From positions 248,001 to 312,000 of the forward strand of contig KV918783.1 in assembly GCA_002049455.2 (NCBI GenBank): a stretch of 64,000 bases of DNA, given 5' to 3'. The first letter of the stretch is position 1. Each line of letters begins with the position of its first letter. This DNA comes from Porphyra umbilicalis. Lineage: Eukaryota; Rhodophyta; Bangiophyceae; Bangiales; Bangiaceae. Positions 24,928 through 63,243 of the stretch are shown piece by piece. The notes beneath the pieces are model-generated. The model searched no databases and was not told the DNA's origin. It worked only from the letters and a program-made list of their open reading frames with translations. The translations under genes and the position numbers were made by a program.

Positions 24928-27784
24928 TGGCCGTGGTGAACCGTGAGTCTTAGTCTCATTGTACTTTTATCACTGTGACTGTGTAGGAGTGGAGTGTTGT
25001 GTGCATGGAGTGTCGTAATCGTAATGCCAGAACTCGATACGCCCGAGACGACGGCCAATGTGGTGCTGTATATGCCGAACAGTACACCACGTGATCGACA
25101 TGGTTGAAGCGTTGACGATTGAGGAGCTGGATGGTGGTATGTCTACCAGTCGGACGTGACGCACCGAGCACGCATAGCAGCGAGCAAGAAAAACAAGACT
25201 GTTTCGGTGGGCAAGGCGGATGCACCAAAGAACACCGAGCACATCCTAGCCCGATGAATGCCACACGTTGACGTAGGCAGCCCGCACACACCAAGGAACC
25301 TGGACAGGCGCTTAGTTTCGGGCAGCCCCACCTACACGACATGCCCTGCCCGCCAATACGTGCAGCGAAGTGAGAAGACCCGACAACAAACAGAGCACAG
25401 CTCGACGGCACGTCAGCAACAGAAAAACACAGCAGGCCGCCATGTCAATACAACGGCTCAGCTTCTCCGTCACAGTACGGGCCAGCAGCCAAGACAAGTG
25501 CACCAACGCATTGAGAAATGTACCGCAGTTATGACTCGTATGCCCCCGACGACCGTCGTCATCAAACGCCGCCCTTCCCCCCTCCCCTCCCAGACGACGC
25601 GGCCAGGCGACGAACGCTTAGTGGTGCCAAGGGGCAACCGACCACCGCGAACTCCGAACGAGGCACATGCCACTGGAGAAAGGGGACAGAGGTAGGAACA
25701 GGGGCAGCCTTAAGGACCGCGGACAACCCCCTCCGCCGACGTCTACCCATCCCCACCGTACGCCCCACACGCGGCGCCAACCCCACCACCCCATCCGTAC
25801 CCCTACCGCACGAGCTGACATCGCCCGGCCAAAAGACTCGGGGTCCGAAGCACGCGACGGCGGGGGGGACGGAGGGAGGGGCAGCGCCCGACGACCCTCC
25901 CCGCGGGATCCGGCCACATGCCCTCCCGGTGCGCGGCACCAAAACGACACCGCGCGGTGGAAGGGTGGTGGGCAGGGCGCAGAAGGAGGGCGCTCACCGA
26001 CAGGCGGTGACGAGCAGGGCGACCAAGTGGGGGGAGGTAGAGTCTGCGGGGAGAGGCACTCTTCCAGACTGTCTGGGCGGGCGGACGTGGGAATATCGCC
26101 AGCGCTCGCAATTTGGATCTGGTGGGAGACACGGGTGGGGGAAAAGGACGTCTAGATACAAGGAGACGGAAACAAACCCAGCGCGACAGGCGGTGGCTCG
26201 CGGAGGAGACGGCGGGCGTACCAGAAATGACCACACAACATCACACGCACCACATCGGGAGCAAGACGGCACAAGATGCTGGGACGACAGCCACTACAGA
26301 GCGGACAACAGCCTGCCACCTCGCCAAACAGGGGCACACGTCGGCCGCTACTGTCGCGGGCGACGCACGCTCCGCTGAAGAGGAGCAGACCCACGAGGGC
26401 CCTGACGAGGAGTCGACGGACGGCGCGTCGCGCGCCAAAATCGAATTGCGGAAGATGGCTGCAGCCTGATCGATCGGAGTTTGATTTGCCAGCCTCAATC
26501 GTCGTGGACGGGTCATATTTATAGGCGTCGTGCCCCACGGTCCAACGATAAAATCGGCGCGTGACCTCTTCAGCAGCCGCCCTCCGACCCTGGCTTTTAC
26601 GACGACCCGCTCTCCAGAACCGCCGCCACGCACCTTATCACAGCCGCCGTCGCGTCGCTTGAAATGTGATACACTGCTTTACGTCATGTGTGGCACTCCT
26701 CGTTGCGTCTTTGTTCCTCGTGGCCATCGTGGCGCCCGTAAAGGTTTTTGTGTAGTGTCTCCCCCTTGCGTGTTCCTCTCCTCCTAGTTCGTACGGCGGC
26801 GAATATGTTGCTTTTGTTGGTCTTGTTGCCTTTCATGCATTTCTTTTCTTCCCCCCGTCCCCAAGCTCGGCAGGGACCCCGGACTTGGCGGCGTGGGCGG
26901 CTCACTCCACTCCGTGCGGTACAACCTAGCAGCGGAGTCGACGTGGCGGCAGGCGCCAAGCGGCGACGGGGCGTGCGCGACGGGATGATCAACCTTTTCT
27001 ATTCCACAGCTCACTCGTACGACGGGGCCCTTACAACTGGGTCCCCCTGCCGATAGCAATAGATCTGATCCCACGCCACGTCGTCGCTTGCCACTGCCGC
27101 CTTCCTCCCATCTCCCTGGTCGCTGCCGCTGCTGCTGCTGTGTGCTGCGGTCCCACCTTGCGCGTCTGCGTCTTGTGCTACCATAAAGTCCTTGTTTTTT
27201 GTTTTTCTCCTATTGCGACTGGTTTGCTTGTGCTGGCAATCCTCTCTACAGAGTTCTCCGCGTGCATCTGTCGCCGTGTACCGCACAGGACGAGGACTCC
27301 AGCTGACATGCCGCTGGCACCCCTGCACCCGCGGCTAGGTCGACAAGACAAGACGGTTTGTAATGTCAAGGGGCTGTGCCGTTGCTTCTTCAGGGGCGCC
27401 CTCCGTTGCCGGCCGCCATCCCCCGCGCCCACCCCGGCTGCCCGTCACCACGCTGTTAATCTATGTGCGTCCTCCCTCACGTGCCCCATGCACCCACCGC
27501 AGCGGTCCGCAAGGGCACCAGACTGGTGGGAGGCCCTCGACCGATGCCCCCCCCGCCCAATCCCCAAGGTGATGCGCAGGGGACCTCTCGCCATGCCTTC
27601 CCTCTCCCCATCCCCACCTCCCCCTCCCCGTCGATGTCGGCGGTGCCTTCGCCCCTCGGTATCGCCCAGGGCTCCGACATTTGCGTCACCCTAGGCCTCG
27701 GCAGCCCTGCCATGCGCCAGCGCGTCGGGCGGAGGGACGCAGACCGCGGCGGATGATGGAAGGCAGGCGACTACGCAATGTAGT
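24928..27784. other. 2.9 kb convergent intergenic region, no recognised gene
   Basis: This lies between the 3' ends of the OSCA-like gene and the repeat protein. The plus strand is purine-rich at about 25600-26300. An open frame at 25518-26378 starts MYRSYDSYAPDDRRHQ and runs 286 codons, but it is Arg/Gly/Thr-rich without a domain, so I do not call it. No other signal is seen. Confidence 0.45.
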
Positions 27785-30700
27785 TCATGTCCTGGTCTTG
27801 GTGGCCGCCCGAAAGAGCGTCCCCGAACGGCGGCGCCACGCCTGACTCCGGGACATCCGCGTCACCGGCGTTGCGGAGCCGGTCCTGCCCCCGTCCCCAA
27901 ACGACGGAAACCCGGTCGCGTCGGACGACGCCGTCCCGACGTCGGGCGTCGCCGGCGTCGCGGAGCCGGTCCTGGCCCCGTCCCCAAACGACGGAAACCC
28001 GGTCGCGTCGGACGACGCCGTCCCGACGTCGGGCGTCGCCGGCGTCGCGGAGCCAGTCCTACCCCCGTCCCCAAACGACGGAAACCCGGTCGCGTCGGAC
28101 GACGCCGTCCCGACGTCGGGCGTCGCCGGCGTCGCGGAGCCGGTCCTGGCCCCGTCCCCAAACGACGGAAACCCGGTCGCGTCGGACGACGCCGTCCCGA
28201 CGTCGGGCGTCGCCGGCGTCGCGGAGCCGGACCTGGCCCCGTCCCCAAACGACGGAAACCCGGTCGCGTCGGACGACGCCGTCCCGACGTCGGGCGTCAC
28301 CGGCGTCGCGGAACCAGTCCTACCCCCGTCCCCAAACGACGGAAACCCGGTCGCGTCGGACGACGCCGTCCCGACGTCGGGCGTCACCGGCGTCGCGGAA
28401 CCAGTCCTACCCCCGTCCCCAAACGACGGAAACCCGGTCGCGTCGGACGACGCCGTCCCGACGTCGGGCGTCGCCGGCGTCGCGGAGCCGGTCCTGGCCC
28501 CGTCCCCAAACGACGGAAACCCGGTCGCGTCGGACGACGCCGTCCCGACGTCGGGCGTCGCCGGCGTCGCGGAGCCGGTCCTACCCCCGTCCCCAAACGA
28601 CGGAAACCCGGTCGCGTCGGACGACGCCGTCCCGACGTCGGGCGTCGCCGGCGTCGCGGAGCCAGTCCTGCCCCCGTCCCCAAACGACGGAAACCCGGTC
28701 GCGTCGGACGACGCCGTCCCGACTTCGGGCGTCGCCGGCGTCGCGGAGCCGGTCCTGGCCCCGTCCCCAAACGACGGAAACCCGGTCGCGTCGGACGACG
28801 CCGTCCCGACGTCGGGCGTCGCCGGCGTCGCGGAGCCGGACCTGGCCCCGTCCCCAAACGACGGAAACCCGGTCGCGTCGGACGACGCCGTCCCGACGTC
28901 GGGCGTCACCGGCGTCGCGGAACCAGTCCTACCCCCGTCCCCAAACGACGGAAACCCGGTCGCGTCGGACGACGCCGTCCCGACGTCGGGCGTCACCGGC
29001 GTCGCGGAACCAGTCCTACCCCCGTCCCCAAACGACGGAAACCCGGTCGCGTCGGACGACGCCGTCCCGACGTCGGGCGTCGCCGGCGTCGCGGAGCCAG
29101 TCCTGCCCCCGTCCCCAAACGACGGAAACCCGGTCGCGTCGGACGACGCCGTCCCGACGTCGGGCGTCGCCGGCGTCGCGGAGCCGGTCCTACCCCCGTC
29201 CCCAAACGACGGAAACCCGGTCGCGTCGGACGACGCCGTCCCGACGTCGGGCGTCGCCGGCGTCGCGGAGCCAGTCCTGCCCCCGTCCCCAAACGACGGA
29301 AACCCGGTCGCGTCGGACGACGCCGTCCCGACGTCGGGCGTCGCCGGCGACGCGGAGCCGGTCCTGCCCTCGTCCCCAAACGACGTTAACTCGACTGTGT
29401 CGGACGACGCCGTCCCGACGTCGGGCGTCTCGGCGTCGGTCGACGGCGGGTCCCCACCGACGGGCGACTCGCCATCGTCGGCGGGGGTCGGCGTCGAAAC
29501 CACCACCACCGGCGGCGGCTCGACGTCGTCCTGCGGCTCCCCGGTCACCGGCGTCGCGGAGCCGGTCCTGCCCCCGTCCCCAAACGACGGAAACTCGACT
29601 GTGTCGGACGACGCCGTCCCGACGTCGGGCGTCTCGGCGTCGGTCGACGGCGGGTCCCCACCGACGGGCGACTCGCCATCGTCGGCGGGGGTCGGCGTCG
29701 AAACCACCACCACCGGCGGCGGCTCGACGTCGTCCTGCGGCTCCCCGGTCACCGGCGTCGCGGAGCCGGTCCTGCCCCCGTCCCCAAACGACGGAAACTC
29801 GACTGTGTCGGACGACGCCGTCCCGACGTCGGGCGTCTCGGCGTCGGTCGACGGCGGGTCCCCACCGACGGGCGACTCGCCATCGTCGGCGGGGGTCGGC
29901 GTCGAAACCACCACCACCGGCGGCGGCTCGACGTCGTCCTGCGGCTCCCCGGTCACCGGCGTCGCGGAGCCGGTCCTGCCCCCGTCCCCAAACGACGGAA
30001 ACTCGACTGTGTCGGACGACGCCGTCCCGACGTCGGGCGTCTCGGCGTCGGTCGACGGCGGGTCCCCACCGACGGGCGACTCGCCATCGTCGGCGGGGGT
30101 CGGCGTCGAAACCACCACCACCGGCGGCGGCTCGACGTCGTCCTGCGGCTCCCCGGTCACCGGCGTCGCGGAGCCGGTCCTGCCCCCGTCCCCAAACGAC
30201 GGAAACTCGACTGTGTCGGACGACGCCGTCCCGACGTCGGGCGTCTCGGCGTCGGTCGACGGCGGGTCCCCACCGACGGGCGACTCGCCATCGTCGGCGG
30301 GGGTCGGCGTCGAAACCACCACCACCGGCGGCGGCTCGACGTCGTCCTGCGGCTCCCCGGTCACCGGCGTCGCGGAGCCGGTCCTGCCCCCGTCCCCAAA
30401 CGACGGAAACTCGACTGTGTCGGACGACGCCGTCCCGACGTCGGGCGTCTCGGCGTCGGTCGACGGCGGGTCCCCACCGACGGGCGACTCGCCATCGTCG
30501 GCGGGGGTCGGCGTCGAAACCACCACCACCGGCGGCGGCTCGACGTCGTCCTGCGGCTCCCCGGTCACCGGCGTCGCGGAGCCGGTCCTGCCCCCGTCCC
30601 CAAACGACGGAAACTCGACTGTGTCGGACGACGCCGTCCCGACGTCGGGCGTCTCGGCGTCGGTCGACGGCGGGTCCCCACCGACGGGCGACTCGCCATC

Positions 30701-33700
30701 GTCGGCGGGGGTCGGCGTCGAAACCACCACCACCGGCGGCGGCTCGACGTCGTCCTGCGGCTCCCCGGTCACCGGCGTCGCGGAGCCGGTCCTGCCCCCG
30801 TCCCCAAACGACGGAAACTCGACTGTGTCGGACGACGCCGTCCCGACGTCGGGCGTCTCGGCGTCGGTCGACGGCGGGTCCCCACCGACGGGCGACTCGC
30901 CATCGTCGGCGGGGGTCGGCGTCGAAACCACCACCACCGGCGGCGGCTCGACGTCGTCCTGCGGCTCCCCGGTCACCGGCGTCGCGGAGCCGGTCCTGCC
31001 CCCGTCCCCAAACGACGGAAACTCGACTGTGTCGGACGACGCCGTCCCGACGTCGGGCGTCTCGGCGTCGGTCGACGGCGGGTCCCCACCGACGGGCGAC
31101 TCGCCATCGTCGGCGGGGGTCGGCGTCGAAACCACCACCACCGGCGGCGGCTCGACGTCGTCCTGCGGCTCCCCGGTCACCGGCGTCGCGGAGCCGGTCC
31201 TGCCCCCGTCCCCAAACGACGGAAACTCGACTGTGTCGGACGACGCCGTCCCGACGTCGGGCGTCTCGGCGTCGGTCGACGGCGGGTCCCCACCGACGGG
31301 CGACTCGCCATCGTCGGCGGGGGTCGGCGTCGAAACCACCACCACCGGCGGCGGCTCGACGTCGTCCTGCGGCTCCCCGGTCACCGGCGTCGCGGAGCCG
31401 GTCCTGCCCCCGTCCCCAAACGACGGAAACTCGACTGTGTCGGACGACGCCGTCCCGACGTCGGGCGTCTCGGCGTCGGTCGACGGCGGGTCCCCACCGA
31501 CGGGCGACTCGCCATCGTCGGCGGGGGTCGGCGTCGAAACCACCACCACCGGCGGCGGCTCGACGTCGTCCTGCGGCTCCCCGGTCACCGGCGTCGCGGA
31601 GCCGGTCCTGCCCCCGTCCCCAAACGACGGAAACTCGACTGTGTCGGACGACGCCGTCCCGACGTCGGGCGTCTCGGCGTCGGTCGACGGCGGGTCCCCA
31701 CCGACGGGCGACTCGCCATCGTCGGCGGGGGTCGGCGTCGAAACCACCACCACCGGCGGCGGCTCGACGTCGTCCTGCGGCTCCCCGGTCACCGGCGTCG
31801 CGGAGCCGGTCCTGCCCCCGTCCCCAAACGACGGAAACTCGACTGTGTCGGACGACGCCGTCCCGACGTCGGGCGTCTCGGCGTCGGTCGACGGCGGGTC
31901 CCCACCGACGGGCGACTCGCCATCGTCGGCGGGGGTCGGCGTCGAAACCACCACCACCGGCGGCGGCTCGACGTCGTCCTGCGGCTCCCCGGTCACCGGC
32001 GTCGCGGAGCCGGTCCTGCCCCCGTCCCCAAACGACGGAAACTCGACTGTGTCGGACGACGCCGTCCCGACGTCGGGCGTCTCGGCGTCGGTCGACGGCG
32101 GGTCCCCACCGACGGGCGACTCGCCATCGTCGGCGGGGGTCGGCGTCGAAACCACCACCACCGGCGGCGGCTCGACGTCGTCCTGCGGCTCCCCGGTCAC
32201 CGGCGTCGCGGAGCCGGTCCTGCCCCCGTCCCCAAACGACGGAAACTCGACTGTGTCGGACGACGCCGTCCCGACGTCGGGCGTCTCGGCGTCGGTCGAC
32301 GGCGGGTCCCCACCGACGGGCGACTCGCCATCGTCGGCGGGGGTCGGCGTCGAAACCACCACCACCGGCGGCGGCTCGACGTCGTCCTGCGGCTCCCCGG
32401 TCACCGGCGTCGCGGAGCCGGTCCTGCCCCCGTCCCCAAACGACGGAAACTCGACTGTGTCGGACGACGCCGTCCCGACGTCGGGCGTCTCGGCGTCGGT
32501 CGACGGCGGGTCCCCACCGACGGGCGACTCGCCATCGTCGGCGGGGGTCGGCGTCGAAACCACCACCACCGGCGGCGGCTCGACGTCGTCCTGCGGCTCC
32601 CCGGTCACCGGCGTCGCGGAGCCGGTCCTGCCCCCGTCCCCAAACGACGGAAACTCGACTGTGTCGGACGACGCCGTCCCGACGTCGGGCGTCTCGGCGT
32701 CGGTCGACGGCGGGTCCCCACCGACGGGCGACTCGCCATCGTCGGCGGGGGTCGGCGTCGAAACCACCACCACCGGCGGCGGCTCGACGTCGTCCTGCGG
32801 CTCCCCGGTCACCGGCGTCGCGGAGCCGGTCCTGCCCCCGTCCCCAAACGACGGAAACTCGACTGTGTCGGACGACGCCGTCCCGACGTCGGGCGTCTCG
32901 GCGTCGGTCGACGGCGGGTCCCCACCGACGGGCGACTCGCCATCGTCGGCGGGGGTCGGCGTCGAAACCACCACCACCGGCGACGGCTCGACGTCGGCCT
33001 GCGGCTCCCCGTCGTTGGTGGTCGGGTCTAGTAGGACGTTGGGAGTTGCAACTGGAGCGGCCGTCGCCGCGGGCGTTGTAGCGACGGTGGGCTCCGGATC
33101 GACTGCGGCAGGCGGCACAGGTACGATGACTGAGGAAGTACTGAGGTCAGACGTCGGCAATATGGTTGCCGGCGTTGGCGTCGGCAGCTCTTGAGATGGC
33201 GCCTCCACTACCACCACCGGGGCGGCGGTGGGTGCCGTGCCGGTGAAGGTCACCGGCGGTGCCGGCGGTGCCGTCGCCACGACCACCACGCTCGACGGTG
33301 GGGTGGCCGCCACCGGCGACGCTGCGATCACCTCGGCTGGCGAAACGGCCGGCTCAGCCTCAGCCGTTGGCGCGATCGTCCCGGAGGGTGCGCTGGCGGC
33401 ACCCGCGGTCGGGGCAGACTCGACCGCCTCTGGGGTAGTGTCGAAAAGGACCGCCCCCGTGTCTTCCCCGCCATCACCCGCCTCGGCAGCAGGCGCGGCG
33501 ACAGTTGCCGACGGCACCGCAGGGGAAGGAGCCGCCGACGGCGCCACCGTGTTTGTCGACGCGCCTGCGGGCGTCGCCGTCGCCGTCGACCCCGGACCCA
33601 CGTCCACGCCATCTTCCGGCAGGGAGAAGAGCCCTTGGTCGTCGCTACCCCCCGCCGCACAGCCAGTCGGGCACGGCACCGGCACGACCGCTGTGCGGGC

Positions 33701-34222
33701 GCACGGGTCGACGCCCGCCGACGGCGTCGGCGTCGGCGTTGGCGTCGGCGACGAGCCAGTCGTTGGCGTCGGCGTCGGCGTTGGCGCCACGCACACGACC
33801 GCCGGCACGCCCGACGCGGAGAAAAAAGCGGGGGCGGACGGACAGGGGACGGTCGGCGCGCCAGCGTTGGCCGCGCACGCAATAGCCACCGTGCGGATGT
33901 CGGTGCAGTTGCCGCGCTGGGCGCACACCGTCGGCGACGGCGTCGGTGTGACAGTGACGGTGGCGATGGCCGTGGCGGTGGCCGTGACCGTGGCAGTGGC
34001 GGTCGGCGTGACCGTGGCGGTGGCCGTTGGCGTGGCCGTCGCCGCCGGGCGCACCCTGAACCCGCCAGTCACGAACGCAAAGACCCCCGGCGTTGCCGTC
34101 GGGGGACCCCCAGGCACAAAGATGATGGCCGCCTCGGCGGGCAGCGGCACGGCCAACAGGAGAGCGGCGGCGGCGGTCAGCGTGACGGCCGCCGCCGCGA
34201 ACAACAGGCGGGGGGGGACCAT
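27785..34222 (-). CDS. Secreted Pro/Thr/Ser-rich tandem-repeat protein
   Basis: I do not recognise the family. The start is set at 34222, not the frame's first ATG at 34525, because this Met begins a signal peptide: MVPPRLL, a long Ala/Leu core, then cleavage after AEA (residue 31). That gives 2,145 residues. The mature N-terminus has (PT)n and (AT)n linkers and a Cys-bearing segment (VCAQRGNCTD to CPTGCAAGG). Next come about 18 copies of a 68-residue unit (PPPVVVVSTPTPADDGESPV plus TPDVGTASSDTVEFPSFGDG), then 17 copies of a 29-residue unit (TPDVGTASSDATGFPSFGDG plus GRTGSATPA). No transmembrane segment or GPI signal is evident. The composition and secretion fit an O-glycosylated wall or mucilage protein; this is inference. 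The last unit is one base out of register with the consensus, changing the C-terminus. Confidence 0.8.
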   Translation of the reverse strand: MVPPRLLFAAAAVTLTAAAALLLAVPLPAEAAIIFVPGGPPTATPGVFAFVTGGFRVRPAATATPTATATVTPTATATVTATATAIATVTVTPTPSPTVCAQRGNCTDIRTVAIACAANAGAPTVPCPSAPAFFSASGVPAVVCVAPTPTPTPTTGSSPTPTPTPTPSAGVDPCARTAVVPVPCPTGCAAGGSDDQGLFSLPEDGVDVGPGSTATATPAGASTNTVAPSAAPSPAVPSATVAAPAAEAGDGGEDTGAVLFDTTPEAVESAPTAGAASAPSGTIAPTAEAEPAVSPAEVIAASPVAATPPSSVVVVATAPPAPPVTFTGTAPTAAPVVVVEAPSQELPTPTPATILPTSDLSTSSVIVPVPPAAVDPEPTVATTPAATAAPVATPNVLLDPTTNDGEPQADVEPSPVVVVSTPTPADDGESPVGGDPPSTDAETPDVGTASSDTVEFPSFGDGGRTGSATPVTGEPQDDVEPPPVVVVSTPTPADDGESPVGGDPPSTDAETPDVGTASSDTVEFPSFGDGGRTGSATPVTGEPQDDVEPPPVVVVSTPTPADDGESPVGGDPPSTDAETPDVGTASSDTVEFPSFGDGGRTGSATPVTGEPQDDVEPPPVVVVSTPTPADDGESPVGGDPPSTDAETPDVGTASSDTVEFPSFGDGGRTGSATPVTGEPQDDVEPPPVVVVSTPTPADDGESPVGGDPPSTDAETPDVGTASSDTVEFPSFGDGGRTGSATPVTGEPQDDVEPPPVVVVSTPTPADDGESPVGGDPPSTDAETPDVGTASSDTVEFPSFGDGGRTGSATPVTGEPQDDVEPPPVVVVSTPTPADDGESPVGGDPPSTDAETPDVGTASSDTVEFPSFGDGGRTGSATPVTGEPQDDVEPPPVVVVSTPTPADDGESPVGGDPPSTDAETPDVGTASSDTVEFPSFGDGGRTGSATPVTGEPQDDVEPPPVVVVSTPTPADDGESPVGGDPPSTDAETPDVGTASSDTVEFPSFGDGGRTGSATPVTGEPQDDVEPPPVVVVSTPTPADDGESPVGGDPPSTDAETPDVGTASSDTVEFPSFGDGGRTGSATPVTGEPQDDVEPPPVVVVSTPTPADDGESPVGGDPPSTDAETPDVGTASSDTVEFPSFGDGGRTGSATPVTGEPQDDVEPPPVVVVSTPTPADDGESPVGGDPPSTDAETPDVGTASSDTVEFPSFGDGGRTGSATPVTGEPQDDVEPPPVVVVSTPTPADDGESPVGGDPPSTDAETPDVGTASSDTVEFPSFGDGGRTGSATPVTGEPQDDVEPPPVVVVSTPTPADDGESPVGGDPPSTDAETPDVGTASSDTVEFPSFGDGGRTGSATPVTGEPQDDVEPPPVVVVSTPTPADDGESPVGGDPPSTDAETPDVGTASSDTVEFPSFGDGGRTGSATPVTGEPQDDVEPPPVVVVSTPTPADDGESPVGGDPPSTDAETPDVGTASSDTVEFPSFGDGGRTGSATPVTGEPQDDVEPPPVVVVSTPTPADDGESPVGGDPPSTDAETPDVGTASSDTVEFPSFGDGGRTGSATPVTGEPQDDVEPPPVVVVSTPTPADDGESPVGGDPPSTDAETPDVGTASSDTVELTSFGDEGRTGSASPATPDVGTASSDATGFPSFGDGGRTGSATPATPDVGTASSDATGFPSFGDGGRTGSATPATPDVGTASSDATGFPSFGDGGRTGSATPATPDVGTASSDATGFPSFGDGGRTGSATPVTPDVGTASSDATGFPSFGDGGRTGSATPVTPDVGTASSDATGFPSFGDGARSGSATPATPDVGTASSDATGFPSFGDGARTGSATPATPEVGTASSDATGFPSFGDGGRTGSATPATPDVGTASSDATGFPSFGDGGRTGSATPATPDVGTASSDATGFPSFGDGARTGSATPATPDVGTASSDATGFPSFGDGGRTGSATPVTPDVGTASSDATGFPSFGDGGRTGSATPVTPDVGTASSDATGFPSFGDGARSGSATPATPDVGTASSDATGFPSFGDGARTGSATPATPDVGTASSDATGFPSFGDGGRTGSATPATPDVGTASSDATGFPSFGDGARTGSATPATPDVGTASSDATGFPSFGDGGRTGSATPVTRMSRSQAWRRRSGTLFRAATKTRT
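27850..29395. repeat. 87-bp tandem repeat, 17 full units
   Basis: The unit encodes 29 residues on the minus strand. Variant units (GGRTGSATPA, GGRTGSATPV, GARSGSATPA, GARTGSATPA) recur in the same order seven units apart, giving a 609-bp higher-order period: GAACCAGTCC marks at about 28311 and about 28920. The unit equals the C-terminal part of the neighbouring 204-bp unit. Confidence 0.95.
29396..33010. repeat. 204-bp tandem repeat, about 18 units
   Basis: Unit starts fall at 29400 and every 204 bases to 32868. Interior copies look identical by eye; only the outermost differ. 204 is a multiple of three, so each frame that is stop-free in one unit stays open throughout. This produces long spurious antisense frames on the plus strand. 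Confidence 0.97.
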
Positions 34223-48826: not shown

Positions 48827-51800
48827 CGTGCGGGCGGGAGCGGCCGCGGCCGCCATCGACGCCGCCGCCACCGCCGCCACCGCCATCGACGTCGGGGACG
48901 TCGCGGCCGCGGTCGCGGGAGCGCCCGAGGGCGGCGGGTGGGAGCACCGCCGGCGCGTCGCGGGGGGCGTGGCGCCGCCCCCGCTCCCGCTCCCGTCCCG
49001 CTCCCGCTCCCGCTCCCGGTCGCGGTCGCGGTCACGGTCGCGGGTGCGGGGGCGCTCCCAGCCGCGCTCGCGGCTCGCGCTCCGCTCCCGCGACCGGTCG
49101 CGACTGCGCCCGCGGCTGCGCGCGTGCCCCCGGTCGCGGCTGCGCCCCCGATCGCGGCTGCGCTCGCGGCTGCGGTCGCGCTCGCGGCTCCGCCCGCCGT
49201 CGCGGCTGCGCTCGCGGCTGTGCTCGCGGCTGCGCTCGCGGCTGCGCTCGCGCTCGCGGCTGCGGCTGCGCTCCCACCCGCGGTCGCGGCTGCGGTCGCG
49301 CTCGCGGCTGCGGCTGCGGGGGCGCTCCCAGCTGCGCCCCCACTCGCGGCTGCGGCCGCGGTCCCACTCGCGCCCGAGCTCCGCCTCGTGACTGCGCTCC
49401 CGATCGCGGTCGCGGTCGCGGTCGCGGTCGCGGTCGCGGTCGCGCTCCCGGCGGCCGCGCTCCCGCTCCCGCTCCCGCTCCCGCTCCCGCTCCCGGGGCG
49501 CCGCCTCCCGGCCGCGGTCCCGCTCGGCGGGGGCAGCCGCCCCCGCCGCGCCGCCCCGCTCGGGCGACCGGTCGGGCGGCGGCACGGAGCGCGGGCGGGC
49601 GCTCGCCGGCGGCGCGCCGCCGCTGCCGCCGTCGCCGTCGGCAGCCGCCTTGGCGCCACCCCCGCCGGCGGCCGGCGGCGGCGGCGCGGGCACCCCCCCC
49701 CCCTGGTCGCCGCCCCCCACGTCGGCCGCCGCCACCCCCCCGTCGACGCCGCCGTCGTCGTCGCGGTGCCGCCGCCGCTTCTTCTTCTTGCGCCGCCGCC
49801 GCTCCTCGTCGGCGGCCGCGTCGGGGGGGTCGTCCCCCGCCTCGCCCCCCCCGCCGGCGGGGGCGTCCCCCACCGCCCCCTCCCCGCCGTCGGCGGCAGC
49901 GGCGGCGGCGGCGGCGGCGGCGCTCTCCTCCCGCCGCCGCTTCTTGCGCCGCTTTTTGCGCCGGCGGCGGCGCTCCTCCTCCTCCTCGTCGACGCCAGAG
50001 CCGACGGCCGGCGGCGCGGGCGTCGGCGTGGGCGTAGGCGTCGGCGTGGGCGTAGGCGTCGGCGTCGGCGTCGGCGTCGGCGGTGGCAGCGGCGTCGGCG
50101 GCGGCGGCGGTGGCGGCCGCCTCGCGGTCGGCGCGGGCGGCGCGGCGACGGCTACTCCCGCCGCCGCCGCTGCCGTCGCCGTCCCAAACGGGGGCGCGGC
50201 GGCGGCTGCTCCCGCCGCCCCCGCTGCCGTCGCCGTCCCGACCCGACGGGGCTGCGGCGGCCGCCGCGTCGGAGCCCGCATTGAGGGAAAGGGGCGCCAA
50301 CTCGGCGCCCCCCCCCCCCGCGCGCTCGTCGGCCCACACGCGGAGGAGGTACCGCCCGTCCTCCACGTCCATGGGCGCGGGCAGGCGACCGGCCGACACG
50401 GCCGCCGCCGAGAGCGACGGCGGCTCGTCCGCGACCGCGTCCATCGCCACGTCGGCCCGCTCATCGTCGTCGGGGGGCACGCCGTCGGCGGGCTCAACGG
50501 GCGGCGGCACGTCGGCCGGCTCGCCGCCCCCATCGTCGCTGCCTTGGGCGGAAAAGGCGCCGCTGGGGACCCCCCCGTCCCCCCCCCCCCCCCCCCACGC
50601 CCCACCCCCCCCCGTCCACCTCGTCGGCCACATCGTAGCGGCCGCCACTCCAACTCCGCGGGGACGTCGGCATGGCCGGCACGGCCGCTGCCGCCGCCCA
50701 CCCGCCGCCGCCGCCGCCGCCGCCGCCGCCATCCGCATACGGGTTGCCGCCATACACCCCCCCACCCCCCCCTCGTCCGAGTGCCACCCGCCACTCGTGT
50801 CGTGCACGGTCGTGTCCCCATTGCCCGAGCGCGGGGACCACGGCGGGCTCGCGGGCCCCCCCGGCGACGTTGGCGCGGCGGGCCCAACCTCCTCGGCCAC
50901 GACGTTGCTGCGGGCGCGGCCGCGGCGGCTCCGGCTGCCGCCGCCGCCGCCGCCGACGCCGCTGGCGGCGCCACGCGACTGCGCGCGGGTGCCCCCCGCG
51001 AGCGCCATGGGCGGCGCCGCCGGCGGCCGCACCACCCCGTGCTCCCGCGGTGACGCGCGCGTCGGCACGCTGCCGCCACGCGGGCGCCGACGCGCGCGGC
51101 TGCTGCCGCCGCCGCTGAGCAGCGACGCTTCCCCGCCACCGCCACCGCCGCCGCCGCCAGCGCCAGCAGACGCATACGACGCGGCGCCGCCGCCGGCGGC
51201 CGCGGCGCTGCGGGTGGAGCGGTCCCCCCCCCCCAGCCGAGGCTCGAGCGCGCCCCGACCGCCGGTGCCGGCGGCGGGTGGTGCGACGGCGGCACCACGC
51301 GGATGCGTGGCGGCGGCGGGGCTGCCACCGCCAGGGGCGGCGGCGGGCGCGTCGCACCGGGCACCGGCGCCGCCACAGGCGGCGGCGGCGACGGCGACGG
51401 CGGCGGTGACGGCGGCGGCGTCGGCGGCGGCGGCGGCGGGTGCAGCGCCGCCTCGTACGCGGGGCCGTCGAGGAGGGATACGGGGATGCCGCGGCCCCAG
51501 GCGGCGCGCGCCATCGCCGCCCCGAGGCGCACCGCCGACGCGTCGGGGGCGGTGGCGGCGGCGGCGAGCGCCGCCGCCGCCGCCGCCGCCGCGCCGGCGG
51601 TGCGGCGGCGGAGGGCCACGACGGGGGGGCGGGGGGCGCCCGCCACCCCGCCCGTGGGGGGGGGGGGGCCACCGCCGCCCACAGCGCCCGCGCGACGGCG
51701 CGGCGGAGGCGCGGGGGCTCCCAGTAGAGGCGACCGCCGCCGCCGTCGCCGCCGCCGCCACCGCCGCCGCCACCGCCGCCGCCGTCCGAGGCCGTGTCCA

Positions 51801-53987
51801 TGGCCCCGTCGGCGGCGGCGGGCGCACCGCCGCCGCCGAGCGCCCGCCGCACCGCCGCGGCCATGGCCGGCGGCACGCCAACGCCGTCGCCGAGGCGGTC
51901 GTCGGCGACGAGGGGCGGGGGCGCCCCCCCCCCCCCCCGCGGCAAACACAAGCCGAGGAGCCACGCCACGACCGGCGGGGCGTCTGCAAAGCGCGCCGCC
52001 AGCCCCGCCACCGCCGCCTTGCGCGCCGCGTGCGGCGCCGCAGCGTCGCCCGCCACGGCCACGAGCGCGTTGCGGAGGGGCGTCTGCCGCTGCGGCGGCG
52101 CCGCGTAGGCGGGGCCCCCCGACGCGGCAACGAGGGCGGTGAGGGCGGCGGCGGCGAGGGCCCCCCCCCCCCCCCCCCCGACCCCCCCCCGCTGCCGCCG
52201 CCGCCACCGGCGCCACCCGCGAGGGCGGCGAGCGACAGCTGCCGCGAGATTTCCGCCACCGCCCGCCCGGCGGCGGCGCCGTCGGCCGACGCGGCCGCCG
52301 CGGCGCCGAGCGCCGTCACGAGCGCCGTCCGGTAGCCGCCGTCCGACACGGGGTTGCCCCGGTTGTCATTGCCCGCGGAGAGGGCGAGGAGCAGCGTCAG
52401 CGCGCGGGGGGAAAGACGAGTTTGGTGCGCGACGCCGTCGGCGGCGGCGGTGGCGGGGCGGGGACGGGCGGGGGCGGGCCCCCCCCCGCCCCCCCCGCCG
52501 CCGCCGCCGCCGCCACCGCCGCCTCCACGGCTGCCGCCGTCGCCACGTCGGCGGCGGCGGCGACTTCGGATTGGCGCACGGCGCCGAGGGCGGCGACGAC
52601 CCCCTGCTTGACGTACGCTTCCGGGAGGTCGGCAAACCGGTTGGCCCGCACCGCCGCCGCGAGGCGCGCCTCGGCGGCGGGCCCGACGCCGACCGCCGCC
52701 GCGCCCGCGGCGGCAACGTGGCGCGGGCACGCCCAGTCGAGGAGGGCGGCGAGGCCGGCCGTGCCGCAGGCGGCCAAACCATCCGCCGCCGCCACGCGCA
52801 CGCGCCAGTAGAGCTGCGTGTCGTCGAGGACGCGCGACAGCTCGGCGACGACGGCGCGGAGGAGGCTCGCGGGCCCCGTCATGCCGCCCGGGTCTCTTTT
52901 GGGTGCGTCCCCGTCGGCGGCGGCGCCCGCCGGCGCCCCCCCCCGTCCTCGTTGCCACCCCCACCCCCGTCGCCGCCGCCGCCGCTGGCCGTTGCCGCCG
53001 CCGCGGCGGCGGCCGCCGCCGCCGCCAGCGCGGCCGCCGCCCCCCCGGCGCCGCGTCGACGCGCGGCACGACGTGGCGGACGGACCAGGCGAGCCCCCGG
53101 ACGGCCTCCCGCTGCGCGAGCGCGTCCCGCTCCGTCGCGAGCAGCGCCGTCCAACAGGCGGCCGGCTGCCGCACGGTGATGGCGGCGCCCCACTCGCCGT
53201 CGGGGTCGACGCGCACGCCGAGGACGGAGCCGACGCCCGCCGCGTCGAGGCGGTACTGCGCGTCGACGGCCGACGCGGCGGCGGCGGCGGCGGCGACCAT
53301 GGCCGCCGCCCGGTTGCGCCCCCGCCGCGAGTGGCAGGGGAGCGCCGCCGAGACGGCGCCCTCGCGCACCTCCACCGCGTGGTCGTACGCGCCCTCCGTC
53401 TCCACAAGCCGCACCGTGAGGGTGCCGGAGAAGAGCTGCGGCGGCTGCCGGTCGACGCCCCGGGCGCCGCCGCCGCCGCCGCCGCCGCGGTTATCGCCAT
53501 TACCTCGACCGGCACGCCCCCCCCCCCCCTTGCCGCCGCCGCCGCCGCCGCCGCCGCCGCGGTCATCGCCATTACCTCGACCGGCACGCCCCCCCCCCCC
53601 CTTGCCGCCGGCGCCGGCGCCGGCGCCGGCGCCGGCGCCGCCGGCGCCGCCGCCGTCGCCGCCGGCGCCGCCGCCGTCGCCGCCGCCGCCCGCGGCGGCG
53701 GCCCCAAACGGCGGGGGCGGCGGGTCCCCCCTCCCCACCCCCGGCACCTGCCGGACGACAAACTCGACTTGGTGCTTGCGCGTGTCGTACCGGAACGCAC
53801 ACTCGAGGACCGGCACGGCCGCCGGGGCGGCCGCCCACTGCCGCACGAGCGACCTCAACTCGACGCCGCAAATGGCGCGGAGGCGCTTGAGAAAGGGGGA
53901 GACCGCCAGCCCGACCGTCGCCGTGTCGTCAAAGCCGGTCGCGGCGGGGGGGTGGGGGGCGCCTTTGCGCCCACCGCCACCGCCACC

Positions 53988-54018
<31 letters not shown>

Positions 54019-54693
54019 CCGCTGCCGCCGCCGCCGGGAGTGGGGGGGGGAGGGGCGCCCCCGCCCCGGTGGCGGCAGCAGCGGCGGCGGCCGCCGCAGC
54101 AGCAGCAGCGGCGGCGGCGGCGGCGGCGGCGGCTTTGCGGCCGCCCTTGGCGGCGCCACCCCCCCCGCCGCCCGGCGCCCCCCCCGCCGTGGCGACCCCC
54201 CCCCCGCCTCGCCCGCCGCCGCGAGCGTCTCGGCGAGGATGTCGCGGAGGGCGCGGCGGAAGACGTCCCCCCCGACGCGCTTCTCCACGAGCTGCATGAC
54301 GAGGCCCGCGCGGCGCGCCGCCGCCGCGCCGCTGCCGCGGGAAAAGGCATTGTCGCCGCCATCGTTGCGCGGCCCGCGGCCGCCGCCGCCGCCGCCGCCG
54401 CCACCACCCCCACCCCCACCGCCACCCCCACCCCCACCGCGGCGGGACACGCCGTCACTCCCCCCCTTGCCGTGGGAGTGCCCCTGGCTCGCCGCCACCG
54501 ACGCGTCGTCCCCCCCCCCCCCCCCGCCCCCCCCGCCGCCACGCCCCCCCCCGCGGCGGGACACGCCGTCACCCCCCCCCTTGGAGTGGGAGTGCCCGTG
54601 GCTCGGCGCCACCGACGCGTCGTCCCCCCCGGCGTCCCCCCCGGCGTCCCCCCCGGCGTCGCCCTCGGGGTCCCCCCCGGCGTCTGCCTCGGC

Positions 54694-54726
<33 letters not shown>

Positions 54727-55721
54727 ACGGGCGCCCTCCCCCCCCCGACGCGCGGCGGGAGCACCCGCCCGAGCGCCGCCGCCGCACCCACATCCGCCCG
54801 CACATTGTCGAGCGCGTCCGCCCCCCAAAAGCGGTACCAGTTGCGCCCGAGGCTCGACCGCACGGCCGTGGCGGCCACGTGCCGGCGGATGCCCGCCAAC
54901 AACCACCCGTCGGCGGCGGGGGAGCGCGCGCCGACGGTGACGCCAAAGTAGGCGCCCGCGAGGGCGGCGGCAACGGCGAGGCGCGCGCCCGTGCCGGCCG
55001 CACCCCCGACGCTGCCGTCGGCGGGGGGGGACACGCCGAGGGCGCCGGGGGGGACCTCCCCGGGCGCGACGTGAGGCAGCGCCTCGCCGGGGAGCGTCGC
55101 GAGGCCCCCGGCCCAGGTGTGGGGGTGCGCGTCGCCGCCCGCGCCGGTGCCGAGGTAGACGAGGGTAAAGGTAAAGGCGGGGGGCGCCCGCCCGCCGGGG
55201 GGGGGGGGCGGCCCCCGCCGCCCCGTTTCCGCCGCCAGCGGCGGTGGCGGCGGCGGCGGCGGCGGCACCCGCCGCGCCGCCGCCACCACCACCACCCCCC
55301 TCCTCCTCGTCCGAGTCGTCCCCCCCGTCGGCCTCGTCGGCCTCGTCGACCACGGCGTCCGCCCCCCCCCCGGGGGCGGCGGGAGCCAGCCCAGCAGCGG
55401 GGGCGTCAACCCCCCCCCCCCCCCCCCCCCCCGGCGGCGGCGCCCACGGCGCCGCCGCCACGGCCGGCGCCGCCGTGCCCGTCGGGGGCGCCCCCCCAAA
55501 GTAGTCCCGCACGACCGCGAGGGCGTTGGCAAACAGCGGCGGCGCCGCCGCCGCCAAATCCCGCGCCCGCCCCGGGAGGCACAGGTAGGTGACGGCGGCG
55601 GGCGTCGTCGGGTCGGCAAGCACCAAAAAGGGCCCCGCGACGAGGCCCACGTCTGCCGGCCGCACGGGCGCGGGCGTCCAAAATTCCGTCACCTTCCAGT
55701 AGCCGCCCGCCCCGGGGGGGA

Positions 55722-59798: not shown

Positions 59799-59859
59799 TC
59801 CAGTAGAGATCAACGAGATGTCGACGACAGGTTTTGAATTTCTTTTGCGTACTTGAGAT

Positions 59860-61673
59860 CCGGACGAGAAATCACAATATTGACCGAGAAATCACATCCG
59901 ACACAGCTGGCTTGTGTCAACCAACGAGAAGATTCAATCACTGGAATGGCCAGTCCTATCATACAATGTCATCTCGCCCTATTCACTGTCGTCACTGCTA
60001 CTGCAACTGTCGCCCACGCCACTCTGGCTCCCAGAACCGCTCTCAGGCGGCCCAGCGCACATGGTGACGTGCTCTGCCAGTGCCGCGCCCGCCGCCAACT
60101 GCTTAAAGCAGACGGGGCACACCCAAAAGGCACCACACGCACACCCCACCCACGTCTTGCCCCATCGGGGGACCTTGTCGGCGCAAACACGGCACCTGTG
60201 AAGCTCACGCGACGCCACCTTCTCAGCCAACTCCCGCTCTTGGTTCACCTTGCGCTCTTCCCGCGCGACGCGGCGTACAGCTTTTTCCTCCTCCGCCTTG
60301 GCGGCAGCCTCCTGCACCTTGCGTTGTTGCTCTAATAGCAGGAAGGGGGAGTGAACGACACCGCGTTTCACGACCGCCAGGCCACTCGAGGACCCCGCTC
60401 TGGCCTCGTATACACGCCCTTGAGCCGCCATGATGACCTCCGAGGCGGCTTGACGGGCAGCCTCGACGGCCGTCTCGCCGATGTCGACGAGGCCAAGGTT
60501 GGCGCGGACGTTCGCCTGCATCAACTCCGGGTCGAATGGCCATAAGCCCCGCCGCAGAAAAGCACCGGGAATGATTGGTCCGGTGAACGTCCGGCGCTCC
60601 GCGGCGTAGGCGGCCAACAACGAAGCGTCCCGCGTGTTGGTATTGGTGAGCATCCCGTCCATAACGGCCTTCTCGTTTCGACGCACCTTGTCGGCTTGCA
60701 TTGTTCCATAGGGCGCCTCGTCCAGCGGCTGGGTGATACGGGACGTGTTCTTGGAGAGGGAGAAGAGGAAAATCCCGAGCCCCAGCGCGTACTCGACGAT
60801 GTCCGACCGGCGGTGGGCGGCCAACTGGTCCCCGAACAGCAGCGCTTGGATGCCTGGGTAGCGGGCGTGAAACACTTCGGCCACCTTGGCCAGCACCTCC
60901 TTGAAGATGCGCGCGTCAAGGAATCCCGTATCATTCCAGCAGTAGTACCTTGGCCACGTCCCACGGGTGATGCTCGGCGCCCGCTCCATGGTGAAGTTGA
61001 CCGCTGCCTTGTCCCCTGCCCCGAAGCGCCCCTTGAGGATGTACACACTCAACAGCACGGACCCGTCGGCGGCGACGAAGGTGAGCAGCGCCGCCACGTC
61101 CTGGTGCCGCGTGGACCTAACGTTGCAAGCCCTTTTGCTCAGCTGCTTGCGGTACCGGCCGAGGAAGCAGGAAACTCACGTACGAGACACGTTGACGCCC
61201 CACTTGCGTAGCACCAGCTGCCTCATCTGCTCCACGGTGAGGGCCAGGTTGTTCACACTGAAGGCCTGGGTCACCGACACCAAAACGGCTTCATGATCCG
61301 GGGTGAGCTTCATCAGGCCGTGGCCATGGCGGCGTCCAAGTCTCGAGCGGTGGTAGGCGACCCGCACCGACGACGCGGTGCGCCCCGTGTGCGACGCCAC
61401 GTACAACAGCGCGGCCTTGAGCGTGGGGAATGTGTGCTTGACATCCTCGAGGAGCGCCAGGGCGGCGGCGAGGTCCTCGCGGGGGGGCATGGTGACGGGG
61501 GGGGTGGGGTATGGCACCAACAAGCCGGTGGGGTGGTGATGCAGGATTCCCGCCCATTTCACCAGTGGGATTGCCCGCCCAGTGATTGATCGCCCGCCTA
61601 AAATCAGGCGAGGCTCCGGATGGCGGGAGTCTCGTATGTGATTTCTCGGTCAAAGTTGTGATTTCTCGTCCGG
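59860..61673 (-). mobile_element. pogo-like DNA transposon, nearly complete
   Basis: Inverted ends of about 38 bp (59860-59897 and 61636-61673) begin CCGGACGAGAAATCACAA at both termini. Within each arm the 11-mer GAGAAATCACA occurs twice, probably two transposase sites. The element carries one transposase gene on the minus strand. A TA duplication expected for pogo elements is not evident at these boundaries, so the exact outer ends are uncertain. Confidence 0.85.
59979..61562 (-). pseudogene. pogo/jerky-type DDE transposase with one in-frame stop
   Basis: The frame is continuous over 527 codons except for one TGA at 61176-61174. Residues about 20-128 form the helix-turn-helix DNA-binding region ending WGVNVSRT. 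After the TGA the same frame continues VSCFLGRYRKQLS. Family members carry Trp at this place (SxxWV-xRFLxR), so TGA most likely replaced TGG. The DDE_1 core has D166 (VAADG), D245 (LLFGDQLAAH) and D281 (ITQPLDEAPYG), a DD35D arrangement. Residues about 455-500 form a Cys-rich zinc-finger-like tail (CRVCADK, CACGAFWVCPVC). An alternative is that GTGAGT at the same spot is an intron donor, but no matching acceptor restores the frame better than simple read-through. Confidence 0.88.
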
Positions 61674-62107
61674 CTCTCCTTCCGGGGAGTCGAGGTGCAA
61701 TCGTCTCAGTGGCCCTGCCCCATGAAAACCGTGCGTCGTCGATCACAGGACACTCGTGTCACGCACTCCACTGGCACCCTCCACTGGCCGCACCAGCGAC
61801 ATACACAACACGACGCCTACGGGAGCCCATCCAGCGACGCCCTGGATCTCCGGCGTACCCCCGACGTCCGTAGCAGCCTCTTACTGTACCGTAGGTGCCC
61901 TGGTCATGTGGGGGTGGTGATATCTATTCTGAGTGTTGGTACCTGTTTCCAGACAACTCACACCACCCGTTCACTTGCTTCTGTTCGTGGTTGGTGAGAG
62001 AATACTAACATTGCTTTGCTGCCTGGTTAGTTGTTCTTTTTGGACCCGTCTGTGTCTAGCTCTGTGCTTGCTTGATGTTTTGCTGTTTTCTTTCGCAAGT
62101 GGCTAAA
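61674..62107. other. Spacer between two transposons
   Basis: No gene is seen. The 3' part is mixed-composition sequence leading into the start of the decayed transposase at 62108. No inverted end for that second element could be found here. Confidence 0.5.
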
Positions 62108-63243
62108 ATGGAGCCCCGCGCGCCTCCCTCCTCCCCAGACCTTCCCGCGGCCAGAACCTACAAGAAGACCACCGTCACCCTGCAACAACTGCTCCTCCTG
62201 ATCACCCATATGCAGGACAAGATCTCGGTGTACGTGCTCGCCGAGCGCTATGGCGTCACTGAGCGGGCGTTGCGCAAAGTTTTCACCAGACGGGAACACG
62301 TTTGGCGGCCGGCGAGTGCAGAAGTTCCCCACGGATTCCGCACTGCGCAACCACCAAGGTTCGCACTGGTGGACGCCAAGTTTCTTGAGATGTCTAACAA
62401 AGCTCAACGGGTGGGCGGCACCCAGCTGCCCATCTCGTTGTTGACCCTGAAGACCCGGGCACAGCAGTACGCCTCGCAGCTGTACCCTGGACGCCCATTC
62501 ACAGAGTCAAATGGCTTTGTCCCGGGATTTTTACGTCGCCATCAAGTCAAGAGCATCCGTCTTCACGGCACGGGTGGCTCCACCCCAGGCCGTGCTGCTG
62601 CTGGACAATGCCAGCGGTCACATCATGAATCTGGAGACCGACTAGCTCTCCGTTGAGGGTCTCCCCGCCAACACGACGGCCCTCTACCAGGCGTGCGAGC
62701 AGGGGATTATCCACTGAACCAAGTGCATCTACAAGCGGGAGATGATGAGCAAGATGCTTGTCTGCGCGGACGAGCATGCCGCCGAGTCCCCGATGGCCAC
62801 CGCGGCACGCCTGGCGCGCCAGATCGGGGCACGACGTGGCCCTCTCGGAGGTGATGACGGCAACAGCCCTCACGTCCTCAATGCGATGAGGCTCCTCAAG
62901 TCCTCTTTTGAGCAGATCACGGCGTCGTGCGCAATGCGCTGCTCGCTATAAGCGAGGTGCCTGCCGACGTGTGTCGAGACCAAGGTCCGCGATCGACTGG
63001 AGGCGGAGACCGAGCTCAACGACGCGCCGGCTGATAACGACGCGCACGCCAATGCCATCGTCGACATTTGGCGCTCCCCTCGGAGCTCGGGAGCCAACGG
63101 CGCCGCCATTGACAAACAGCTACTGTTGGGTAATGATCTGGATGCCCTGCCCATTATTCGCTGACGGCTGGGTTCGGAAGATGACCGCGGGGCGCTCTTT
63201 GAGATTGTGAACCAGATGAAAGAGAGTATCTCGACCCAGTCAT
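62108..63243 (+). pseudogene. Decayed Tigger/CENP-B-type transposase
   Basis: The first part (from MEPRAPPSSP) carries the CENP-B-like double helix-turn-helix: LAERYGVTERALRKVF, then FALVDAKFLEMSNKAQRVGG and TESNGFVPGFLRRH. Next, in the neighbouring frame, comes the later DDE core LLLDNASGHIMNLETD with LPANTTALYQACEQGII. The final part reads like a Tigger C-terminal tail. About 100-120 residues that normally hold the first catalytic Asp are missing between the two parts. The remaining sequence has a frame change and at least three in-frame stops (after NLETD, after GIIH and near 62950). It lies head to head with the pogo-like element and is clearly older. Confidence 0.85.

Follow-up and report, generated by a model that had tools for sequence, protein, structure and literature searches.

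A predicted secreted protein with two nested tandem arrays at a single locus of the red alga Porphyra umbilicalis

The copying of related units many times over is a familiar route to fast-changing cell-surface proteins. In the mucin-type variable number tandem repeat (VNTR) proteins, near-identical units containing proline, threonine and serine (PTS) are strung into long arrays, and the yeast proteins HPF1 and FLO11 are secreted or wall proteins with Ser/Thr-rich tandem repeats of changing number. Here we analyse an open reading frame (ORF) of 2145 residues with two nested tandem arrays, which lies in a stretch of 64,000 nucleotides of the Porphyra umbilicalis genome (positions 248001-312000 of contig C23, hereafter the window); the genome searched comprises 83.8 Mb in 665 contigs. 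The repeat-protein kind to which this ORF belongs is known, and the variant is new. In common with HPF1 and FLO11 it has in-frame, near-identical units within a predicted secreted protein, but its arrays are acidic, a GPI (glycosylphosphatidylinositol)-type tail is absent and no sequence relation to the yeast proteins is shown. Likewise, it shares with the mucin-type VNTR proteins the near-identical PTS-containing units and the length of the arrays, but differs in its strongly acidic 68-residue unit and in the absence of a mucin domain from the Pfam scan. Expansion of the HPF1 repeats makes cells buoyant and shortens their life span (PMC7263189) and, by analogy, repeat length in proteins of this type can be a phenotype.

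Wall and mucilage proteins of red algae are little described in the papers that we found. The literature on red-algal wall, matrix and Cys-rich repeat proteins, covered in part through titles and the beginnings of abstracts, yielded no description of the repeat unit or of the cysteine module considered below, and the word 'secreted' does not occur in the part of PMC8752119 consulted.

Anatomy of the predicted protein

The sequence leads us to read the ORF, with a probability of about 0.6, as a single-locus gene for a secreted, acidic, Pro/Thr/Ser-rich wall or mucilage protein that evolves by unequal exchange. In order, the frame comprises a signal-peptide-like start, a head of 373 residues, 18 units of 68 residues, 17 units of 29 residues and a basic tail of 24 residues (Table 1). 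An earlier note on this DNA had proposed the same ORF limits, a single open frame running through both arrays, a signal peptide and linkers rich in proline and threonine (PT), and in all these respects it proves right, the signal peptide in the sense that a heuristic scan finds a signal-peptide-like start at ATG 34222. Among the 88 ATGs of the window that are followed by at least 300 codons, this ATG alone passes the scan.

Because both array periods are multiples of three, openness within the arrays means little, and the case for a gene therefore rests on the 404 codons that precede them (33011-34222). Over this non-array part the minus frame is the sole stop-free frame of the six, and only 6 of 500 dinucleotide shuffles remain open in it. 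Scored with a codon table taken from the Pfam-supported genes within the window, the same frame reaches +23.2 bits, the other five lying between -10.3 and -42.5 bits.

The mature protein, of about 203 kDa, consists to 41% of Pro, Thr and Ser and carries 327 acidic against 48 basic residues; Gly makes up 13% overall. The charge is unevenly distributed: acidic and basic residues number 252 and 18 in the 68-residue array (about -234 charges), 51 and 17 in the 29-residue array with its Gly-, Pro- and Asp-rich unit (about -34 charges), and 0 and 8 in the C-terminal tail (+8). Every one of the 8 Cys lies in the head, N-glycosylation sequons number one, and the C-terminal tail contains no hydrophobic GPI or membrane anchor. 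No family (Extensin or other) was matched by the 2145-residue protein in a Pfam scan up to E 1.

Table 1. Features of the ORF (window coordinates)
Feature	Position	Strand	Remarks
Whole ORF, 2145 aa	27785..34222	-	ATG 34222 in GCCGCCATGG context, stop TGA
Signal-peptide-like N-terminus, 31 aa, ends AEA/A	34130..34222	-	Heuristic scan
Non-array head of mature protein	33011..34129	-	PT linkers (TATATP, PTPTP), 8 Cys, VVVV-containing stretches
Putative divergent Cys module, residues 97-148, common to paralogues	33779..33934	-	HMM and search matches
Second Cys patch DPCARTAVVPVPCPTGC	33656..33709	-	2.8 bits against module
18 x 68-aa (204-bp) array	29339..33010	-	TRF, translated units
17 x 29-aa (87-bp) array, with 7-unit block duplication	27860..29338	-	TRF, unit comparison
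Border 29-aa part of last long copy (TVELTSFGDEGRTGSASPA), gene's most divergent copy	29342..29428	-
Basic 24-residue tail and stop	27785..27859	-	8 K/R, no D/E

How such a protein might operate can be outlined from its parts. The signal peptide would export it, and the Cys module of the head would fold through disulphides and act as a binding or anchoring part. The two arrays would form a long tail, probably disordered and polyanionic, closing in the short basic stretch. Within the wall or mucilage this tail would most likely be a hydrated filler or spacer, possibly O-glycosylated, that retains water and cations and is in contact with sulphated galactans. Unequal crossing-over or conversion would lengthen and shorten the arrays.

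The arrays were delimited with Tandem Repeats Finder (TRF), which places the 87-bp array at 27859-29438 (18.2 copies, 96% matches) and the 204-bp array at 29340-33011 (18.0 copies, 99% matches). Read in the minus frame, these resolve into 18 x 68 residues (33010-29339) followed by 17 x 29 residues (29338-27860), in keeping with the two arrays, of 17 and about 18 copies, described in the earlier note; the copy numbers throughout are as assembled. Long copies 1-16, 16 of the 18, are identical across 204 bp, so that the interior identity noted before holds, and the variants are the two end copies: copy 0, at the N-terminal end, has 2 differences, both residue-changing, and copy 17, at the C-terminal end, has 6, one of them silent. 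The short array is not uniform: its 17 copies represent 8 types that vary at 8 sites, with a mean of 2.81 differences per 87 bp (3.2%, 136 pairs). It contains a block duplication of 7 units (609 bp), in that units 18-24 differ from units 25-31 at 3 of 609 positions (1, 0, 2, 0, 0, 0 and 0 in successive pairs); in shuffles of unit order the identical run of four pairs has p 0.00075 for lag 7 and 0.0054 over lags 3-10. Identical interiors between divergent edges, together with the block duplication, form the pattern left by unequal crossing-over or conversion, to which we would attribute it. The locus is single in that a search of the genome with the 68-residue unit returned 35 places, all in this array, and two others (E 0.128 and 0.443) that we take as chance.

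Beyond this genome, pattern matches to the 68-residue unit in viral contigs (51) and in bacterial and archaeal genome contigs (590) were in no case confirmed by tblastn; the collections searched hold no other eukaryotic algae, such that absence from them is uninformative for other red algae.

Array history and alternative readings

Of the 29 residues in the most frequent short unit, 25 recur at the end of the long unit, so that the 29-residue unit is indeed, as had been pointed out, the C-terminal part of the 68-residue unit. At the DNA level the mean difference between the short units and the 29-residue parts of long copies 0-16 is 8.5%. The stretch missing from the short unit (GEPQ...DAE) had been given as 20 residues and actually measures 39 (117 bp). 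In layout, the long array adjoins the head and starts in phase at GEPQ, and the short array adjoins the tail and ends in phase at SATPVT.

The most economical history, we infer, begins with the short unit. The 29-residue unit would have been tandem first, next to a unique flank, and an edge unit together with 117 bp of the adjacent upstream flank would then have been amplified as the 204-bp unit. This capture is favoured because it produces the observed order without a deletion and because the short array is the more diverged of the two, which gives it an edge over the history proposed in the earlier note for the same protein, namely that one copy of an original 204-bp array lost 117 bp and its 87-bp remainder was amplified C-terminally. 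Such a loss is compatible with the 29 residues common to both units, and a deletion from GTGAC/CGGGG to GAGAC/GCCCG would produce the 29-29 junction seen here, with the 3 bp GAC matching at the ends. It requires, however, one event more than the capture, and the short array, 3.2% diverged and layered in time where the long array shows 0 differences among 16 copies, appears to have been homogenised less recently, a clock that concerted evolution weakens. Moreover, if the ancestor had a single copy, 87 bp of it could have been duplicated directly by way of the 5-bp GACGC match at the two ends (GAGACGCCCG, GTGACGCGGA). The junctions themselves do not decide, since at the local GC content such short matches (3-5 bp) occur frequently. 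We regard the loss history as somewhat unlikely and give the capture a slight preference only, given that concerted evolution may have erased the age of either array and that the searches yielded no outgroup. As a separate matter, the head was considered as a source of the 117-bp part and rejected: the DNA alignment scored 40 and the best of 300 shuffles 39, but 123 of 500 shuffles equalled the protein alignment, so that the DNA likeness is attributed to GC-rich low complexity.

A different kind of doubt concerns the assembly, since a run of 3264 bp made up of perfect tandem copies is hard to assemble, and the presence of the arrays at one place of the genome only leaves no second allele for comparison. 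Copy numbers or perfect interior identity might then be products of assembly or polishing. Against this, the window contains no N, and the array lies deep inside its contig with distinct border copies at both sides; we consider an artefact of this type unlikely.

Several results weigh against the proposed reading. The first ATG of the ORF is not that at 34222 but an in-frame ATG further upstream at 34372, which would add 50 residues and leave no signal peptide at the N-terminus; hence, when the heuristic scan is restricted to the first ATGs of ORFs, 0 of 25 pass. Codon usage within the arrays fails to single out the minus frame: in the 87-bp array the plus frame starting at 27784 scores 0.157 per codon as compared with 0.026 for the minus frame, and in the 204-bp array another plus frame scores slightly above it. 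In addition, a model of 8 x 29-residue units from AlphaFold2, run without an alignment, is solenoid-like (predicted local distance difference test score, pLDDT, 61.2; predicted template modelling score, pTM, 0.60) and, if real, would argue against disorder.

The arrays could also be a GC-rich satellite with an incidental long frame, or part of a gene on the plus strand. When a period is a multiple of three a stop-free frame of one unit remains open throughout, and ORFs of more than 1000 residues occur here in 4 of the 6 frames; two of these, antisense to the gene and spanning the arrays (27784-33081, 1765 residues, and 27846-33194, 1782 residues), are open for just this reason. However, the unique sequence of the frame of 27784-33081 amounts to only about 25 codons at each end, and that of 27846-33194 has no ATG ahead of the array. 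The minus frame continues through 404 codons outside the arrays, scores best there in codon usage and opens with a signal-peptide-like stretch. Synonymous variation accounts for 4 of the short array's 8 variable sites when read in the minus frame (expected 0.29), as against 1 in each of two plus frames; the frame of 27846-33194, with 5, is indistinguishable from the minus frame by this count. A satellite or a plus-strand gene thus seems improbable to us.

That the 29-residue array folds as a beta-solenoid, for instance an ice- or glycan-binding rod, is very improbable: the repeated strands belong to the best of five AlphaFold2 models that range from pLDDT 61.2 down to 26.8, Foldseek found no match in the PDB at E <= 0.001 (best 0.77), the unit is rich in residues such as Gly and Pro, and AlphaFold2 is reported to return beta-solenoid models when given random sequence in perfectly repeated form (PMC11795689), a tendency because of which we set the model aside. 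Eight copies of the same unit gave no match to PDB sequences up to E 1, and four 68-residue units were modelled at pLDDT 43.0 and pTM 0.23.

A putative cysteine module in the head

By sequence comparison, the head appears to carry a diverged version of a Cys module that occurs at five other loci of the genome. Its first Cys region has a marginal match at 358519-358668 of contig C27 (34% identity, E 0.017), within an ORF that has a signal-peptide-like start, two TPTPC-x5-C modules and a Gly-rich tail. Searches with the C27 module led to C132 (three modules), C98 (two) and C69, and the C98 modules led in turn to C431. We built a hidden Markov model (HMM) from 8 modules of C27, C132, C98 and C69, leaving the window protein out. 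Residues 91-205 of the latter score 20.4 bits against it, a value reached by 0 of 5000 free shuffles and 0 of 5000 shuffles with Cys fixed (maxima 12.9 and 17.1). When each of the four loci is dropped from the HMM in turn, its own modules score 26.5 to 58 bits, and the module of the window protein is on this account the most divergent. Its Cys spacing is C-x5-C-x9-C-x10-C-x16-C, as compared with C-x5-C-x9-C-x9-C-x16-C in module 2 of C27. The earlier statement that no named family has this unit holds for the repeat, which has no Pfam match, and has to be qualified for the head, which resembles the Cys-module family of the same genome.

This kinship has its own adverse results, beginning with the weakness of the direct C27 match. 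The module HMM gives 5.1 bits on the full protein with bias correction (E 2.6; best domain 13.0 bits) and 14.9 bits on the first 404 residues (E 0.0023; best shuffle 8.7). A genome search with the 205-residue head at E 0.01 returned the head alone, and searches with the C27, C132, C69 and C98 modules at E up to 1 did not recover the C23 locus reciprocally. The second Cys patch, DPCARTAVVPVPCPTGC, likewise returned itself alone in a genome search at E 1, and at 2.8 bits its kinship with the module is unsupported.

The five loci resemble the present ORF in combining a signal-peptide-like start, a (P)TPC-x5-C module and a low-complexity tail; such starts, in a similar ATG context, were found by the heuristic in 4 of 4 paralogues tested. 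The tails differ, being Gly-rich in four of the five (C431 is without one), whereas the window protein has acidic PT arrays in place of the Gly-rich tail of the family. The paralogue ORFs are L034, L036, L038, L040 and L053, with Gly-rich tails in the first four. Those first four, scanned with Pfam, gave nothing above the curated cut-off, and the C132 module was found neither in bacterial and archaeal genome contigs (96 pattern matches, none confirmed) nor in plasmids. A further candidate, weak Cys-module match lies at C226 (E 0.013).

Taken together, we tentatively suggest, as a joint proposal less probable than not, that the lineage has its own family of secreted Cys-module proteins with exchangeable, fast-evolving tandem-array tails, a red-algal counterpart of the fungal repeat adhesins, and that the array boundary described here records a 'unit capture', in which a unit at the margin of an older short array took in adjoining sequence and was re-amplified as a longer and more acidic unit. 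If true, the members of such a lineage-specific family would be candidates for roles in wall architecture and desiccation tolerance, and a two-tier array with intact borders would provide a clean case of how a longer unit arises beside a shorter one.

Linker-bearing proteins and the rest of the window

A DNA search with the head matched 38 other places in the genome, nearly all within its two low-complexity linker stretches. We inspected 8 of the linker-matching regions (L024-L031) and saw large modular ORFs in three, L024, L026 and L028, and none in L025, L027, L029, L030 and L031. In the ORF of L024 (52-4344, plus strand) a tyrosinase domain (E 6.5e-27) is joined to a long stalk, rich in PT and proline/alanine, that contains a 15-bp x 58 array; that of L026 has malectin and TIG domains with PT linkers; and that of L028 (1218-5999, minus strand), which has no Pfam match, opens with a signal-peptide-like stretch, carries a PT array of 45 bp x 16.7 and shows, by eye, a hydrophobic stretch near its end. 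All three thus have PT-rich linkers and two of them (L024 and L028) also arrays, as does the window protein, but their domains are other recognisable or larger ones and their units are unrelated in sequence. As evidence of kinship the PT linkers were rejected, being a shared style rather than homology; PT stalks on several extracellular-type proteins would nonetheless fit a wall or matrix setting, without showing one.

Neighbouring ORFs in the window match UDP-glucose dehydrogenase, RIO kinase and a tetratricopeptide repeat (TPR) protein in Pfam, and further ORF pieces match PF02714, PF13967 and PF14703, which we take to be parts of a CSC1/OSCA-like channel. The window as a whole gave no Rfam match at the gathering score and no tRNA. 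A 50-nt inverted repeat (59855-59904 and 61629-61678; 90% complementary, 1724 nt between the arms) could possibly represent the terminal repeats of a DNA transposon; a separate ORF at 62060-62653 on the plus strand has a Tc5 helix-turn-helix match (E 1e-4). Between 48000 and 57500 the GC content is about 78-84% and many long ORFs overlap on both strands (for example 49035-55688, minus strand, 2218 residues), with a run of arginine/serine dipeptides near 49392 on the plus strand. Elsewhere in the genome, a search for the phycobilisome family (PF00502) gave 11 matches, one on contig C128 and 10 on C665, of which 8 cover at least 146 of the 155 profile positions, and we read C665 as the red-algal plastid.

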